A DNA stretch of 64,000 bases, from assembly GCF_007483665.1 (NCBI RefSeq), contig NZ_ML660186.1, positions 276,533 to 340,532 on the forward strand. Reading direction: 5' to 3'. Position 1 is the first letter of the stretch. Each line of letters opens with the position of its first letter. The notes under the pieces are model-generated. The model was given only the letters and a program-made list of their open reading frames with translations, made no database searches and was not told the DNA's origin. The position numbers and the translations under genes are program-made. This stretch comes from Catellatospora sichuanensis. GTDB taxonomy: Bacteria; Actinomycetota; Actinomycetes; Mycobacteriales; Micromonosporaceae. Positions 3,977 to 23,698 of this stretch are shown here, in pieces.

Positions 3977-4028
3977 AAGGAAGGGCACCTTCTTATCGCT
4001 TTGCGATGCAGAAGGTGCCCTTCCTAAC
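3977..4028 (+). repeat. Hairpin repeat element, copy 2
   Basis: The arms AAGGAAGGGCACCTTC and GAAGGTGCCCTTCCT enclose a loop containing CGC-TTT-GCG, a second tiny stem. It begins 8 bases after the ligase stop and probably serves as its terminator or mRNA 3' end. Confidence 0.9.
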
Positions 4029-4042
4029 TTCTGCCGCGGGTT

Positions 4043-4070
4043 TTCCAACCCGTGCGCCGTGTGCCGCCGT
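4043..4070 (+). promoter_or_regulatory. Candidate ECF-type promoter, cassette 1
   Basis: The bipartite motif TTCCAAC, 13 bases, GCCGCCGT lies ahead of the first ECF sigma gene. It recurs with identical spacing at 6044-6071 ahead of the second, inside otherwise diverged sequence. An autoregulated promoter is plausible, but shared ancestry of the duplicated cassette is the simpler reading. Confidence 0.4.
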
Positions 4071-4114
4071 GTAGGTGGGGCGGAAGGTCGGACAGACGAA
4101 CGGGGAGGTGTCAT

Positions 4115-4642
4115 GTGGTGGACGACGACGGATTCCGCGAGTTCGTGCACGCCCGGCTGAGCAGGCTGTCGCGCATCGCGTACCTGCTGACCGGAGACCA
4201 TCACGCGGCCGAGGACCTGCTGCAGAACGCACTGGTCAAGCTGGCGTCGCGGTGGTCGAAGGTGGCCTCCGGGGGCGCGCCGGACGCGTACCTGCGCAAG
4301 ATCCTCTACCACGAGCACGTGTCGGCCTGGCGGCGTAACCGCCACCTGCGCGCCGAGTGGCCCACGGCAGAGCCGCCGGAAGGGGGCAGCGGCCGGGACA
4401 TGGCCGCCGAGACGGTGCGCCGCGTGCTTCTCGAGCAGGCGCTCGCCAAGCTGACCCGCAAGCAGCGCGCGGTGATCGTGCTGCGCTTCGTCGAGGACCT
4501 GTCCGAGGCCGACGCCGCCGCGGCGCTCGGCGTCACCGTGGGCACGGTCAAGAGCCAGACGTCGTACGCCCTGAAGCGGCTGCGCGAGCTGGCACCCGAA
4601 CTGCACGTGCTGGTCAGGGAACCGAAGGAGGCCTGGGCATGA
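4115..4642 (+). CDS. ECF RNA polymerase sigma factor, SigE family (copy 1)
   Basis: Group IV sigma factor of 175 residues. Region 2 covers roughly residues 5-70 (RIAYLLTGDHHAAEDLLQNA, then YLRKILYHEHVSAWRR). Region 4 covers roughly 110-165 (KQRAVIVLRFVEDLSEADAA with a helix-turn-helix ending VGTVKSQTSYALKRLREL). GTG at 4115 was chosen because it aligns with the start of the paralogue at 6112 and follows GGGGAGG at 4102-4108. An alternative GTG lies at 4118. It is immediately followed by a mini-ORF and then a one-TM protein that probably controls it. Its target genes are unknown, though a shared motif upstream of both cassettes suggests autoregulation. It is about 70 percent similar by eye to the copy at 6112. 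Confidence 0.9.
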   Translation: MVDDDGFREFVHARLSRLSRIAYLLTGDHHAAEDLLQNALVKLASRWSKVASGGAPDAYLRKILYHEHVSAWRRNRHLRAEWPTAEPPEGGSGRDMAAETVRRVLLEQALAKLTRKQRAVIVLRFVEDLSEADAAAALGVTVGTVKSQTSYALKRLRELAPELHVLVREPKEAWA

Positions 4643-4713
4643 GCGAGCGCAGCGAGCGAATCATGTTGCCCGGGGTTCATGCCGCCGACGAGCGAAGCGA
4701 GGAGAAGGCATGA
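4639..4713 (+). CDS. 24-residue coupling mini-ORF (SER-type leader)
   Basis: The ATG at 4639 overlaps the sigma stop (ATGA), and the frame stays open to a TGA at 4711-4713 that overlaps the ATG of the next gene (ATGA again). GAAGGAGG sits 7 bases upstream. The peptide begins MSERSERI and ends AADERSEEKA. A second ORF with the same beginning (MSER) and ending (AADERGEEQA), and the same ATGA junction, precedes the gene at 50814. Perfect start-stop chaining suggests it relays ribosomes from sigma to partner. Whether the peptide itself matters is unknown. It may be a mobile repeat that happens to be open. Confidence 0.55.
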   Translation: MSERSERIMLPGVHAADERSEEKA

Positions 4714-5975
4714 GCGACCTGACCGAACTGCTGGCCGACATCGGTGACCGCGCCCGCACGTACGACGTCACGGAACAGGCCCTGGTGCTGGGCCGTCGCC
4801 GGCGCAACGCCCGCCGCCTGTCCGGTGTGGGCGGGATCGCCGCGGTGGTCGTCCTGTCGATCCTGGGCGTCACGTACCTGCCTGCCGCGCAGAGCTCGCC
4901 GCCGCCCCCGGCGGCCCCTTCGTCACCGGCCCCGGCCCTGTCGCCGACCACCCCGGCCGTGAACGTGGCCAAATGCGTGCCCCAGCGCCTGCCGATGCCC
5001 AAGGGCTATCCGCCGAAGAGCGTGCTGACCGGCGGCGACCCCACCGGCCGCTTCCTGGTCGGCCGGGCCTACCCGTACGACGGCCGGGACCGCCTGCTGA
5101 TCTGGGAGGACGGCAAGGTCAAGGTGGTCCGGCACGAGGGCGAGGACCCCGACCTCAACGACATCAGCTCCACCGGCATCGCGGTCGGGTCCAGTTTCGT
5201 CGAAGGGGACGTCCAGGTCCCGTGGATCTACCAGAACGGCAAGTTGCGCAGGCTGAAGGGCAAGAACGCGGCGGCGAACGCGGTCAACGACAGCGGCGTC
5301 GCCGTCGGCGCGATGGGCCGCAACGGACCTGCCCTCGGCGGGGCAGGTATTGCCGACGAGCGCCCGGTCGTGTGGCGCTCACCGGCTGCAGAACCGACAG
5401 CGCTGTCAGTACCGGCCGGGATGGTGGGTAGGGCGACAGGCATCGACGCCGACGGCACGATCTCCGGCTGGGTGGGCCCGCCGCCGCGATTCGGCAAGCG
5501 CGGGGAGAAGCCGTCCATGCCGGTGAACCCGAGCCGGGCGGTCGTCTGGCAGCCCGACGGCACGATGCGGGAGCTGAAGGTGCCGGACAGCATCGACGGC
5601 AGGCCGGTCGTCGGGGCCACGGCCGAGGACATCCACGACGGCCAGGTGGGCGGCAGCTTCGTCACCGGCACCGGCGACGCCGACCGGTACGAGTACGTGG
5701 CACAGTGGAACCTCGCCACCGGCGAGGTGCGCTGGCACGCCGTGACCGGCCGCATGAGGCACATCAACGCCTCCGGGCTCGCGGTCCCGTGGGCGAGGCA
5801 TCCCGTGCTGTTCCTGGAGCAGGCCACCGTGCCACTGCCGGACGCGAAGGGCGCCCCCGAGTCCTCGGCGGCCGAGCCGGACATCCGGGTGATCAGCGTG
5901 GACGGCCGCATCGTCGCCGGCTACCAGCCGGTCAACGGAGCCGGCCCCGCCGCGGTCGTCTGGCACTGCACCTGA
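4710..5975 (+). CDS. Membrane-anchored HAF/propeller-like protein, probable regulator of the adjacent ECF sigma (copy 1)
   Basis: Protein of 421 residues with a 35-residue cytoplasmic head (MSDLTELLADIGDRARTYDV), a basic GRRRRNARR stop-transfer stretch and one TM helix at about 39-59. A Pro/Ala/Ser linker follows, then a large exported domain. That domain repeats units such as LIWEDGKVKVV and WIYQNGKLRRLKG, alternating with NDSGVAVG-like turns, as in HAF-repeat beta-propellers. No anti-sigma family (zinc-finger or RskA type) is recognisable. An anti-sigma role is inferred only from coupling to the sigma gene and from the same arrangement in the downstream duplicate. It could instead be a sigma-regulated surface protein. 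Confidence 0.6.
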   Translation: MSDLTELLADIGDRARTYDVTEQALVLGRRRRNARRLSGVGGIAAVVVLSILGVTYLPAAQSSPPPPAAPSSPAPALSPTTPAVNVAKCVPQRLPMPKGYPPKSVLTGGDPTGRFLVGRAYPYDGRDRLLIWEDGKVKVVRHEGEDPDLNDISSTGIAVGSSFVEGDVQVPWIYQNGKLRRLKGKNAAANAVNDSGVAVGAMGRNGPALGGAGIADERPVVWRSPAAEPTALSVPAGMVGRATGIDADGTISGWVGPPPRFGKRGEKPSMPVNPSRAVVWQPDGTMRELKVPDSIDGRPVVGATAEDIHDGQVGGSFVTGTGDADRYEYVAQWNLATGEVRWHAVTGRMRHINASGLAVPWARHPVLFLEQATVPLPDAKGAPESSAAEPDIRVISVDGRIVAGYQPVNGAGPAAVVWHCT

Positions 5976-5977
5976 CG

Positions 5978-6029
5978 AAGGAAGGGCACCTTCTTACCTC
6001 TATGTGTAAAAGAAGGTGCCCTTCTTAAC
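5978..6029 (+). repeat. Hairpin repeat element, copy 3
   Basis: The arms AAGGAAGGGCACCTTCTTA and AGAAGGTGCCCTTCTTAAC are present. The loop (CTCTATGTG) lacks the CGC-NNN-GCG core seen in the other copies. It starts 3 bases after the stop of the preceding gene. Confidence 0.9.
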
Positions 6030-6043
6030 TCGCTGCCGACGAC

Positions 6044-6071
6044 TTCCAACTTTCGTGCCGTACGCCGCCGT
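6044..6071 (+). promoter_or_regulatory. Candidate ECF-type promoter, cassette 2
   Basis: TTCCAAC, 13 bases, GCCGCCGT lies ahead of the second sigma gene, with the same elements and spacing as at 4043-4070. Confidence 0.4.
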
Positions 6072-6111
6072 CAGCTGATGCGGAAGGACGACACGATCGA
6101 GGAGGTGACGG

Positions 6112-6678
6112 GTGGCGGACGACGAAGGTTTCCGCGACTACGTGCACGCGAGGCTGGGCTGGTTGTCGCGTATCGCGTACCTGCTCGCCGGTGATCGCCA
6201 TGCGGCGGAGGACCTGCTGCAGAACACGCTGATCCGGCTGTCCCCGCGGTGGTCGAAGGTGGTGCGCGCGGGCACGCCTGACGCGTACGTGCGCAAGCTG
6301 ATGTATCACGAGCACGTGTCGGCCTGGCGGCGTGCTCGCCACCTGCGCGCCGAATACACGACGGCGGAACTGCCGGACGGGGCGGCCGGGTCGGACATGG
6401 CCGCCGAGACCGTGCGGCGGCTGCTGCTGGAGCAGGCACTGGCCAAGCTGACCCGCAAGCAGCGGGCGGTGATCGTGCTGCGGTACTTCGAGGACCTGTC
6501 CGAGGCCGATGCCGCCGACGCGCTCGGCGTGTCCATCGGCACCATCAAGAGCCAGACTTCGCACGCGCTGTCGCGGCTGCGCGAGCTCGCGCCGGAGCTG
6601 CACGTGCTGGTCAGGGAGCCGAGCGAGCGTGGCGGCACGGCCGTCCGCCAGCTCGGCGGGAACGGGGTGAGGGCATGA
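6112..6678 (+). CDS. ECF RNA polymerase sigma factor, SigE family (copy 2)
   Basis: Sigma factor of 188 residues, paralogous to the gene at 4115. Region 2 (RIAYLLAGDRHAAEDLLQNT) and region 4 (KQRAVIVLRYFEDLSEADAA, IGTIKSQTSHALSRLREL) align without gaps. The C-terminus is about 12 residues longer (RGGTAVRQLGGNGVRA). The start is GTG at 6112 after GAGGAGG at about 6099-6105. Its stop overlaps the start of the partner gene by ATGA directly, without the mini-ORF present in copy 1. Differences are spread along the whole gene, so the duplication is not recent. The two factors may have separate signals because their partners differ strongly in the exported domain. Confidence 0.9.
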   Translation: MADDEGFRDYVHARLGWLSRIAYLLAGDRHAAEDLLQNTLIRLSPRWSKVVRAGTPDAYVRKLMYHEHVSAWRRARHLRAEYTTAELPDGAAGSDMAAETVRRLLLEQALAKLTRKQRAVIVLRYFEDLSEADAADALGVSIGTIKSQTSHALSRLRELAPELHVLVREPSERGGTAVRQLGGNGVRA

Positions 6679-7892
6679 GCGACCTGAAGGAACTGCTGCT
6701 CGCGATCAGCGACCACGCCGGGGTGTACGACGTCACCGAGCGTGCCTACGTGCTCGGCCGCCGCCGCCGTACCAGACGCCGCGCGGCCTACAGCGGTGCG
6801 ACCGCGGTCTTCGCCGTCACGGCCCTGCTGGCCGCGGTGAACCTGCCCCTCGACCGCCCCGCCCCCGAACCGGCGGTAACGCCGTCCCCGTCTCCGTCCG
6901 CGGTCGCCCTGTCGGCGTGCACGGCCGCGGAGCTGCCCACGCCTGCCGGCGTCCGGCCGGACGAGTTCCGCATGGTGGCGGGCGATCCCACCGGGCGGAT
7001 CCTCGCTTCACGTGGCAAGGACGTCAAGGGCGGCGACATCGTGGCGGTCTGGACCGACGGCGTGCCCACCGCGGTGGGCAAGGTGTCGGACCTGGTCGTC
7101 GAGGTCACCGCGGTCAGCTCGACCGGCGCCGTCGTGCTGTTCGGCCAGAAACTGAAGGACGGCAGCCGCGGACAGACCCAGTACACGGCGCTCGCCTGGG
7201 TGTACCAGGACGGCAAGGTGACCCGGCTCAAGGGCGACGAGGCCTTCGGTGCCGCGGTCAACGCCGCCGGCACGGTCGTCGGCATGGTCGGGAAGAACCC
7301 GGTGACCTGGCGCGACGCCACCGCCGAGCCGAAGCGGCTGCCCGTGCCGGCGGGTATGACGGCGGGGGTGCCGATGGCGATCGCCGACGACGGCTCGGTC
7401 GTCGCGCCGCTCTATCAGGGCACGAACAGCCGGTTGCACCTCTGGTCGCCGGACGGCTCGCGCCGCCCGCTCACCTCGCCCGACACGATCGACGGCGCGC
7501 CGGTCGTCGAATCCATGGTCGGCCGGGTCGCCGACGGCTGGGCCGCCGGGACGATCGTCACGCAGAAGGGGCAAGCGCGGCAGTGGTACGCGGCACGCTG
7601 GAATCTCGGCACCGGCGCGGTCGAGTGGTTCGGCGGTCCGGGCCGCCCGGGACCGGTCAATCCGCAGGGGTGGGCCGTCTTCGGGGACACGGCGGCGCTG
7701 ACCCTGGTGCACGGGGACACGGCCGTCGTGGTGACCGGGCTGCCCGGCTACACGCCAGGGACAAACCGCACCGCGATGGACCGGCCGGTCGTCTCGGTGA
7801 TCAGCCCGGACGGGCGCATGCTGGCCGGGAGCCAGATCACCCTGGCGCGGCAGGTGCCGTCGCACCGGGTACTGCGGTGGACCTGCCGGTGA
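6675..7892 (+). CDS. Membrane-anchored HAF/propeller-like protein, probable regulator of the adjacent ECF sigma (copy 2)
   Basis: Protein of 405 residues with the same plan as the one at 4710: a conserved cytoplasmic head (MSDLKELLLAISDHAGVYDV, then TERAYVLGRRRRTRRR), one TM helix at about 41-57, a Pro-rich linker and an exported repeat domain with AWVYQDGKVTRLKG and GTVVGM-type turns. The head and the basic stretch are the best conserved parts between the copies. That fits a shared intracellular partner, while the exported domain has diverged. The last residues (RVLRWTCR versus AAVVWHCT) keep a C-terminal Cys in both. Function as an anti-sigma or sensor is inferred from position only. Confidence 0.6.
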   Translation: MSDLKELLLAISDHAGVYDVTERAYVLGRRRRTRRRAAYSGATAVFAVTALLAAVNLPLDRPAPEPAVTPSPSPSAVALSACTAAELPTPAGVRPDEFRMVAGDPTGRILASRGKDVKGGDIVAVWTDGVPTAVGKVSDLVVEVTAVSSTGAVVLFGQKLKDGSRGQTQYTALAWVYQDGKVTRLKGDEAFGAAVNAAGTVVGMVGKNPVTWRDATAEPKRLPVPAGMTAGVPMAIADDGSVVAPLYQGTNSRLHLWSPDGSRRPLTSPDTIDGAPVVESMVGRVADGWAAGTIVTQKGQARQWYAARWNLGTGAVEWFGGPGRPGPVNPQGWAVFGDTAALTLVHGDTAVVVTGLPGYTPGTNRTAMDRPVVSVISPDGRMLAGSQITLARQVPSHRVLRWTCR

Positions 7893-22133: not shown

Positions 22134-23366
22134 CTAGATCTCGTCGGCGCGGTCGAGCAGGGCGCGCCGCTCGGAGTCGCTGTGGGTGCGCGCGGCGGCC
22201 GCGCGGAACAGCGCCGCGGCGCGTACCCGGTCGCCCGCCCGCGCGGTGAGGTCGGCCTCCGCGGCGATGGCCAGCGGGTAGTCGTCGAGCGCCCCGCCCG
22301 CGCGGGCCCGGGTCAGCAGGTCGAGCCCGGCGACCGGTCCGTACGCGTAGCCGTGCGCCACCGCGCGGTTGAGTTCGATCACCGGGCTCGGCTGCAGTTC
22401 GGCGAGCCGGTCGTAGCAGCCCGCGATCCGGGTCCAGTCGGTGTCCGCGACGGACGCGGCGGTGGCGTGGCAGGCCGCGATCCGCGCCTGCAGCGCGTAG
22501 GGGCCGGACCCCGGCGGCGCGGACTCCCGCAGCTCGGACAGGATGTCGACGGCTTCGCCGATCGCGGCGTGATCCCAGCGGGACCGGTCCTGCCGGTCGA
22601 GCGGGACCAGGTCACCCGCGGCGTCGCGGCGTGCGTGCCGCCGCGAGTGCTGCAGCAGGAACAACGCGAGCAGGGCGCGGGCCTCGGCCTGGTCGGGCAT
22701 GAGCCGCGCGAGCAGCCGGGCCAGCCGGATCGCCTCGTCGGCGAACGCGGGCTCCCCGTCGGCGTTGTAACCGTGGGTGAACAGCAGGTACAGCACGGCC
22801 AGCACGCCGGGCAGGCGCTCGGTGAGCGCCGGGCCGGTCGGCACCCGATACGGGATGCGGGCTTCGGTGATCTTGGTCTTGGCCCGGGTCAGCCGCCGGG
22901 TCATGGTGGACTCGCTGACCAGGAACGCCCGCGCGATGTCCGGGGTCGCCACGGCGCAGATGGTGCGCAGCGTCAGCGCCACCCGGGCCTCCAGCGGCAG
23001 CGCCGGGTGGCAGCAGGTGAAGATCAGCCGCAGCCGGTCGTCCACGATCTCCTCCGGCTCCGGTTCGGCGGTGGCCGCGGTCAGCGCCAGCACGGCGAGT
23101 TCGCGCAGCTTGCGGCGTTCGACGGTGCCGCGCCGGAGCACGTCCAGGGCGCGGTTGCGGGCCACCGTCATCAGCCAGCCGCCCGGGTTGTCCGGCACAC
23201 CGTCGGCCGGCCAGCGGTCCAGCGCCAGCGCCAGCGCCTCCTGCGCGCAGTCCTCGGCGAGCGTCCAGTCGCCCGTGATCCGGATCAGGGCCGCCACGAT
23301 GCGCTGATACGCCTCGGTGGCGGCGGCCGCGGCGGCCTGCGCCGCCGCGGCCCGCGCGTCGGTCAC
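22134..23366 (-). CDS. ECF42-type RNA polymerase sigma factor with C-terminal TPR-like extension
   Basis: Sigma factor of 410 residues. The first roughly 180 residues contain sigma region 2 (ITGDWTLAEDCAQEALALAL, GWLMTVARNRALDVLRR) and region 4 (LTLRTICAVATPDIARAFLV, STMTRRLTRAKTKI). The remaining roughly 220 residues (DUF6596-like, LYLLFTHGYNADGEP, ELNRAVAHGYAYGPVAGL) are the long C-terminal extension characteristic of ECF42. This family has no anti-sigma factor and is controlled through the extension. It is typically linked to DGPF/YCII proteins, as here. The GTG at 23366 overlaps the YCII stop (GTGA). Confidence 0.9.
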   Translation of the reverse strand: MTDARAAAAQAAAAAATEAYQRIVAALIRITGDWTLAEDCAQEALALALDRWPADGVPDNPGGWLMTVARNRALDVLRRGTVERRKLRELAVLALTAATAEPEPEEIVDDRLRLIFTCCHPALPLEARVALTLRTICAVATPDIARAFLVSESTMTRRLTRAKTKITEARIPYRVPTGPALTERLPGVLAVLYLLFTHGYNADGEPAFADEAIRLARLLARLMPDQAEARALLALFLLQHSRRHARRDAAGDLVPLDRQDRSRWDHAAIGEAVDILSELRESAPPGSGPYALQARIAACHATAASVADTDWTRIAGCYDRLAELQPSPVIELNRAVAHGYAYGPVAGLDLLTRARAGGALDDYPLAIAAEADLTARAGDRVRAAALFRAAAARTHSDSERRALLDRADEI

Positions 23367-23698
23367 TGCGACCAGTCGGCCAGCGGCCGGATCTCGATGC
23401 GGCCGCCCCGCGCCATCGGGTGCTCGCGGGCGACCTCGATCGCTTCGTCGAGGTCGGCGCACTCGAGCACGTCGAAGCCCACGATCAGCTCCTTGGTCTC
23501 GGCGAACGGGCCGTCGGAGACCAGGGTCCGGCCGTTGCGCACACGCACGGTCGTCGCCGCCGACTTCGGGCCGAGCCCGATGCCCTGCAGGCGCTGCCCG
23601 CTGGCGTCGTGCTTGTCGACCCACACGTCGATGTCGGTCTCGGGCGCGGGATCGGTGTCCGGCTCGGTGTCGGTGCAGACGAACATCAGATACTTCAT
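23363..23698 (-). CDS. YCII-related (DGPF) domain protein, ECF42 partner
   Basis: Protein of 111 residues with the family start MKYLMFVCTD and the diagnostic DGPFAETKELIVGFDVLEC, then DEAIEVAREHP and a closing IEIRPLADW. The ATG at 23698 has AGGAG about 8 bases upstream. An in-frame upstream ATG at 23728 is rejected because it lacks that signal. YCII/DGPF proteins are the usual co-transcribed targets of ECF42 sigma factors. Their biochemical role is not established. Confidence 0.9.
   Translation of the reverse strand: MKYLMFVCTDTEPDTDPAPETDIDVWVDKHDASGQRLQGIGLGPKSAATTVRVRNGRTLVSDGPFAETKELIVGFDVLECADLDEAIEVAREHPMARGGRIEIRPLADWSQ

Follow-up and report, generated by a model that had tools for sequence, protein, structure and literature searches.

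Class I anti-sigma factors (RseA, RskA, RsiW) are membrane-anchored partners of extracytoplasmic function (ECF) sigma factors, usually encoded by a neighbouring gene, and CnrY has a single transmembrane (TM) segment. In the account given in PMC7406223, a class I anti-sigma domain lies near only about 32% of the ECF sigma factors, anti-sigma domains of fewer than 50 amino acids (aa) are set aside as possible class II, and CnrY places one helix on sigma4 and another on sigma2; the review PMC8103513 raises the question of what controls ECFs that have no evident anti-sigma neighbour, and PMC8999054 presents ECF48/52/53 (e.g., SCO4117) as actinobacterial ECFs fused to a C-terminal TM part, from which proteolytic release is expected. 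The locus analysed here, at positions 4043-7892 of a 64,000-nucleotide stretch of the Catellatospora sichuanensis genome (9.45 Mb; the whole stretch is referred to as the window), holds two tandem cassettes, each composed of a SigE-family ECF sigma factor gene and a gene for a partner protein with one TM segment. From the sequence, it appears fairly probable that each cassette works as a self-amplifying membrane-signalling switch, in which the N-terminus of the partner would be a short membrane-anchored anti-sigma head of CnrY-like size.

Both short sigma factors match PF04542 and PF08281 of Pfam (Sigma70 regions 2 and 4), are 78% identical to each other and score 179 bits (sigma 1) and 169.6 bits (sigma 2) with TIGR02983, above the curated cut-off of 141.55. 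Each partner consists of a head of ~28 residues, an Arg run, one TM segment (from hydropathy only), a Pro-rich linker and an exported domain; the cytoplasmic part up to the TM segment amounts to 36 aa, i.e., fewer than 50. The two partners are 37% identical overall and 69% identical across residues 1-36, and among 22 complete partners of this head type mean column identity reaches 0.50 in residues 1-28 versus 0.32 in the exodomain, hence the head is the better conserved of the two. None of the anti-sigma models in Pfam (E up to 10) or NCBIfam (E up to 1) matches the two window partners, and none of those in Pfam is matched by 32 other partners of the genome found coupled in the automatic scan described below; Cys is absent from the sequence of both window heads, which therefore contain no Hx3Cx2C, the ZAS criterion. 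These results bear out a preliminary description of this DNA, made from the letters alone, in its claims of two tandem cassettes of SigE-family ECF factor and one-TM partner, of a head that is the best conserved part, and of the lack of any known anti-sigma motif.

A match between the head and its sigma factor is suggested by their co-variation. The 65 loci of partner 1 relatives gave 46 unique coupled pairs, of which the 43 with complete partners were analysed; among them, L034 scores 59.9 bits with the family profile versus at least 212 for the rest, is the same gene as L177, has no propeller match and probably carries another exodomain. Across the 43 pairs, the distances of head and sigma factor correlate with a Pearson coefficient of 0.78 and a partial coefficient, given the exodomain, of 0.72 (0/999 permutations), the partial coefficient for exodomain and sigma factor given the head being 0.15 (4/999); by rank, rho is 0.67 for head and sigma factor (0.64 given the exodomain, 0/999) and 0.29 for exodomain and sigma factor (0.11 given the head, 63/999). 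The head-sigma partial correlation is 0.59 within this head class (n = 22, 0/999), 0.62 within the other (n = 21, 0/999), 0.62 without three hybrid loci treated below (n = 40, 0/499) and 0.63 after thinning to sigma distances >0.10 (n = 34, 0/499). Along the partner, head columns 1-18 give 0.75, the remaining head 0.16 and the TM segment 0.09, and none of 26 exodomain segments of 36 columns exceeds a correlation of 0.39 with the sigma factor; the sigma-tracking signal thus lies in residues 1 to about 24 of the partner. The features of the locus are the following:

3980..4023, no strand: perfect-arm inverted repeat GAAGGGCACCTTC...GAAGGTGCCCTTC before cassette 1 (sequence; genome-wide copy count).
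4043..4073, + strand: proposed self-promoter of cassette 1, TTCCAAC (-35-like) ... CGTGTA (-10-like) (conserved CCAAC-N16-19-CGT).
4115..4642, + strand: SigE-family ECF sigma factor 1, 175 aa, GTG start (TIGR02983; Pfam Sigma70_r2, r4_2).
4639..4713, + strand: mini open reading frame (ORF) of 24 codons within a 71-bp repeat insertion, probably no gene (not in C. paridis L037; repeat).
4710..5975, + strand: partner 1, 421 aa, with head, basic run, one TM segment, Pro-rich linker and exported domain, a predicted beta-propeller (sequence, AlphaFold2 (AF2), Foldseek).
4710..4817, + strand: residues 1-36 of partner 1, comprising head and Arg run and proposed to bind the sigma factor (co-variation with sigma).
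4818..4880, + strand: the one TM helix in partner 1, spanning approximately residues 37-57 (hydropathy scan).
4971..5972, + strand: exported predicted propeller of partner 1, with Cys89 and Cys420 close to its two ends (AF2, Foldseek).
5981..6024, no strand: second copy of the inverted repeat GAAGGGCACCTTC...GAAGGTGCCCTTC, between the cassettes (sequence).
6044..6074, + strand: proposed self-promoter of cassette 2, TTCCAAC ... CGTCAG (sequence, motif scans).
6112..6678, + strand: SigE-family ECF sigma factor 2, 188 aa, GTG start (TIGR02983).
6675..7892, + strand: partner 2, 405 aa, its start overlapping the sigma 2 stop as ATGA (6675-6678) (sequence).
6675..6782, + strand: residues 1-36 of partner 2, likewise comprising head and Arg run (alignment with partner 1).

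The head appears to be portable. At E <= 0.001, a search with it gave 47 matches, spread over 31 of 101 genomes; 30 of these matches were examined, one per genome and including cassette 1 of the window itself, and 17 were not; 27 of the 30 lie directly behind a SigE sigma factor gene, and a propeller is present on 16 and absent from 14. Among the remaining three, L181 has a single ORF that comprises a sigma factor, a TYDVTDRA head and a TM segment. Similarly, one ORF at L110 joins a diverged sigma factor (46.7 bits, in two pieces) to this head, which aligns with a z of 10.5 (0/2000 shuffles), a TM segment and the propeller, and L092, L093 and L094 each contain a gene for a sigma-TM-propeller chain in which no head is recognisable by eye. 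At L185 and L189, the other two of the 30, the matched gene comes after a first gene that also encodes a head, the two seemingly sharing one sigma factor, the gene of which was not found within the stretch taken upstream. Kinship of this head with the heads of other SigE partners is suggestive only, with a profile probability of 65% without the Arg run and 1% for reversed heads, since the second of the sets compared includes an intermediate, L014.

The sigma-partner layout is not singular to the pair in the window but common to the SigE family of this genome in general. At E <= 1e-15, the genome contains 64 matches to TIGR02983; the analysis covered the 45 that reach 110 bits and left out the 19 weaker ones. 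In the automatic scan, 34 of the 45 SigE genes are followed by a gene for a short-head one-TM protein (22 at a spacing of -4 and 5 at -8), 10 were called fused and one was called without partner. Nine of the 10 genes called fused are open sigma-TM-exodomain chains, and the tenth, L055 (G000:C4:106697-107119), has an in-frame TGA within the SigE sigma factor and an apparently intact head-TM gene at +70. The locus called without partner, L080, proves by eye to be arranged in like manner, at -4, its TM segment being under the threshold of the scan. As controls, the scan was applied to the 192 ORF ends of the window, where it fires at 6, and, under a more permissive length limit, to the 20 other sigma genes in the genome, where it fires at 5; by eye, not one of these five has head, Arg run and TM segment. 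In a sample of the phylum (29 loci, the best match per genome from 29 genomes, of which L143, L157 and L161 have too little downstream DNA), the layout is present at 22 of the 26 usable loci, i.e., 21 coupled and L156 with a longer head; L158 and L163, among the 21, share the same partner N-terminus. The co-occurrence of sigma factor and partner in other genomes is confirmed (27 of the 30 head matches, which include the window's own, behind a SigE sigma factor, one fused), and the search for further cassettes that the preliminary description had suggested was productive, with 34 of the 45 SigE genes coupled and one more by eye; its proposal of a new sigma-control system is supported as regards a control pair with a sigma-matched head and unsupported as regards a special system confined to the duplicated cassette. 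Also seen in the genome were, at L071 (region of G000:C9:283634-284104), a SigE partner with an exodomain of LytR-CpsA-Psr, an enzyme family (98.5 bits), in the place of the sensor, and, at G000:C16:142160-146006, three sigma-TM-exodomain fusion genes in tandem (L042, L050, L043).

Structure prediction supports a beta-propeller as the exported domain. The AlphaFold2 models of four sequences have an all-beta exodomain, with a pLDDT mostly of 70-95, and a low-confidence N-terminus; Foldseek returned 124 PDB matches at E <= 0.001, and the 50 listed among them are mostly beta-propellers by name, with TM-scores (template modelling) <0.6. The domain had been described as a diverged HAF/propeller domain; the propeller holds in the predictions, and the HAF repeat family was rejected, as neither partner gave any NCBIfam match at E up to 1. 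In 41 of 43 related partners, two Cys flank the exported part, close to its two ends, the exceptions being L034, with both Cys internal, and L115, with a single Cys; such a flanking pair would fit a propeller closed by a disulphide.

The bipartite motif that the preliminary description had noticed ahead of both cassettes, TTCCAAC-N13-GCCGCCGT, was recovered at exactly two sites of the genome without mismatch, both at these cassettes. With up to 2 mismatches, 38 sites were found in the whole genome versus 82 for the reversed control, i.e., no enrichment, and a use of the motif as regulon marker was ruled out on these grounds; the looser TTCCAAC-N16-19-CGTGTA matches cassette 1 and a single further site, which falls within a long SDR-like reading frame, and no promoter target beyond the own cassettes turned up in the motif scans. 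The CCAAC/CGT arrangement is that of an ECF -35/-10 promoter. Upstream of cassettes with this head type, CCAAC-N16-19-CGT is present in 24 of 25 (shuffled sequences: mean 0.30, maximum 3), 15 of the 25 having TTCCAAC in full, and the CCAAC form is present in 2 of 21 cassettes with other heads; in turn, [AG]CAACC-N12-17-CGT is found in 16 of the 21 (shuffled maximum 3) and in none of the 25, the sequences scanned being related to one another and hence not independent. The motif common to both cassettes thus resembles a self-promoter of ECF type, self-activation being the simplest reading, and the element seems to follow the sigma type.

In the proposed mechanism, the sigma factor would drive its own operon from the CCAAC/CGT promoter, and the partner would be made beside it by translational coupling, as the ATGA overlap suggests. 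Some 24 residues at the N-terminus of the partner would bind the sigma factor and hold it inactive at the membrane in the way of CnrY, a class II anti-sigma peptide that is likewise very short, with the Arg run and the one TM segment as the predicted anchor, and the exported beta-propeller may sense an envelope or extracellular signal. This signal would free the sigma factor, by proteolysis or by a conformational change, and the free sigma factor would then raise the expression of its own operon. The same layout may serve the TIGR02983 family throughout the genome, the head staying matched to its sigma factor, the sensor being swapped more freely and some members forming a single chain. The sequences themselves show that the two genes adjoin and co-occur, that head and sigma factor co-vary and are at times fused, that a promoter-like motif is conserved and that a propeller is predicted; binding and inhibition by the head draw indirect support from the co-variation and the fusions.

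Gene order and the single TM segment are as in many class I proteins, and the head might accordingly be taken for a strongly diverged class I anti-sigma domain. This is very improbable, since the ~28 residues before the Arg run differ from the class I mean of 101 +/- 33 aa given in PMC7406223, the anti-sigma models miss the window partners (Pfam, NCBIfam) as well as 32 other partners of the genome (Pfam), and the window heads, devoid of Cys, have no Hx3Cx2C. Another explanation would make the partner one of the outputs of the sigma factor, an envelope effector coupled for co-expression only, the head being an ordinary signal-anchor tail; the exodomains do vary, one of them being enzyme-like (LytR-CpsA-Psr, L071), and propellers without a directly coupled sigma factor occur at nine loci (L025, L027, L031, L099, L107, L108, L111, L112 and L116, with a sigma-like ORF further upstream of the propeller gene at L025 and L111). 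Nevertheless, a mere anchor is not expected to track the sigma factor much better than the exodomain does, and the head is carried by differing exodomains yet placed directly behind a SigE sigma factor in 27 of 30 cases, or even fused to it, which makes the effector explanation unlikely. To a similar degree, it is doubtful that the head is a pro-sigma element, i.e., a tether or co-activator that concentrates or stabilises the sigma factor and does not inhibit it. The nine single-chain sigma-TM fusions of the genome need a release step, not necessarily an inhibitor, and are compatible with such an element; however, a self-promoter at 24 of 25 cassettes would be expected to make an uninhibited loop run away, and the membrane-anchored ECF partners that PMC8103513 and PMC7406223 describe, in the portions considered, are inhibitors.

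Several observations weigh against the anti-sigma switch proposed here, among them the nine loci with an uncoupled propeller. The sequence does not fix whether the sign of the head is anti- or pro-sigma, and its binding is putative. The AF2 model of partner 1 alone draws residues 2-49 as one helix of low confidence (pLDDT about 51 dropping to 32), so that a two-helix clasp like that of CnrY is unsupported by the model, and a PDB search with the head profile (E up to 10) gave two unrelated chains and no CnrY chain. Among the loci of the phylum sample, L137 and L138 lack a partner and L152 and L153 are ambiguous. The fused paralogues as a set have no detectable head (profile probability 1.3%); of four compared singly, two resemble the L049 head, L045 and L050 do not clearly do so (z 1.8), and none resembles the window head. 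A head common to all fused proteins was thus discarded, as neither the profile nor the single comparisons support it. The tracking itself is open to qualification: inside the head classes the exodomain also tracks the sigma factor weakly (0.24 within this head class, 51/999; 0.27 within the other, 32/999), and the head adjoins the sigma gene, so linkage could contribute to the correlation, although it is unlikely to be the main cause because the signal collapses within the head over about 54 bases; this argument from the drop is limited in turn by the little information held by the Arg run and the TM segment. The hybrids L013, L020 and L021, from three related genomes, speak in favour of a head that goes with its sigma factor, but may represent one or two recombination events. 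These are single cassettes with the same downstream HAD-like gene (89-93% identical; the downstream flank was compared), in which the sigma factor is 91-92% and the head 83-90% identical to cassette 1, and the exodomain is 49-59% identical to cassette 2 and 34-39% to cassette 1; the join lies after the TM segment in L013 and between head and TM segment in L020 and L021.

The coupling within the cassettes had been described as ATGA overlaps, either direct or through a mini-ORF, and the two forms fared differently: the overlap at cassette 2 (6675-6678) stands, and the mini-ORF of cassette 1 probably does not hold as a gene. Catellatospora paridis (L037) carries the same tandem pair, and in its cassette 1 the sigma stop and the partner start overlap by ATGA at the point where 71 bp are inserted in the window; the insertion contains the repeat GAGCGNAGCGAGNGAATCATG, with 16 copies in the genome versus 0 for the reversed control. 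The mini-ORF at 4639-4713 is probably no gene, because the insertion is missing in C. paridis and repeated across the genome, and as a regulator it was ruled out. The ATGA overlap is retained at both ends of the insertion, and therefore coupling may survive it; a +67 spacing between sigma factor and partner also occurs in the related genome G003 (L009). The inverted repeat GAAGGGCACCTTC...GAAGGTGCCCTTC, one copy of which lies ahead of each cassette, has 117 copies in the genome (reversed control 0) and is a genome-wide palindromic repeat, probably unrelated to the function of the cassettes. A further sigma-70 type gene with a long C-terminal extension and a Sigma70_r2 match lies at 22134-23624 (- strand); it resembles an ECF42-type factor and is a candidate for one.

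More tentatively, with chances slightly short of even, the first ~24 residues of the partner may represent an undescribed class of minimal anti-sigma peptide and the default control of SigE (TIGR02983) factors in Actinomycetota; a single genome would have around 45 copies of it, with exported sensors that can be exchanged and some versions in a single chain. A literature search gave no description of this head or of the SigE-partner layout; the ECF surveys Casas-Pastor 2021 and Huang 2015 lay outside its scope, and absence from print is not claimed. If such a class exists, it would explain a good share of the ECFs without a recognised anti-sigma partner, and if a peptide of ~24 residues controls the SigE family, it would be possible to predict from sequence many actinomycete ECFs that are now unexplained, each having a sensor of its own. 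For the study of specificity, ready-made swaps are available in the tandem pair and in the natural hybrids.

Compared with the class I anti-sigma factors, whose domains average about 100 aa in the figures of PMC7406223, the window head is far shorter (~28 residues) and gives no match to any anti-sigma model. The SigE factor in Streptomyces coelicolor (ECF39, CseBC) is likewise an actinobacterial ECF of that name; unlike the cassettes, it is presented in PMC8999054 as under two-component transcriptional control, without an anti-sigma factor. ECF48/52/53 share the TM-fused sigma factor with loci such as L038, L042 and L181, but they are described, in the account referred to, with a zinc-finger part, whereas the genes in the window are separate and their heads have no Cys. 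The likeness to CnrY lies in the very short cytoplasmic part, which the window partners also have (PMC7406223, in the part cited). The partners are proposed to work like class II and are not filed there because no sequence relation was found and the lone model has one helix: the window head has no sequence match to CnrY, AF2 gives it one low-confidence helix where CnrY has two, and the sensor of the window type is an exported domain, a predicted propeller or another exodomain.

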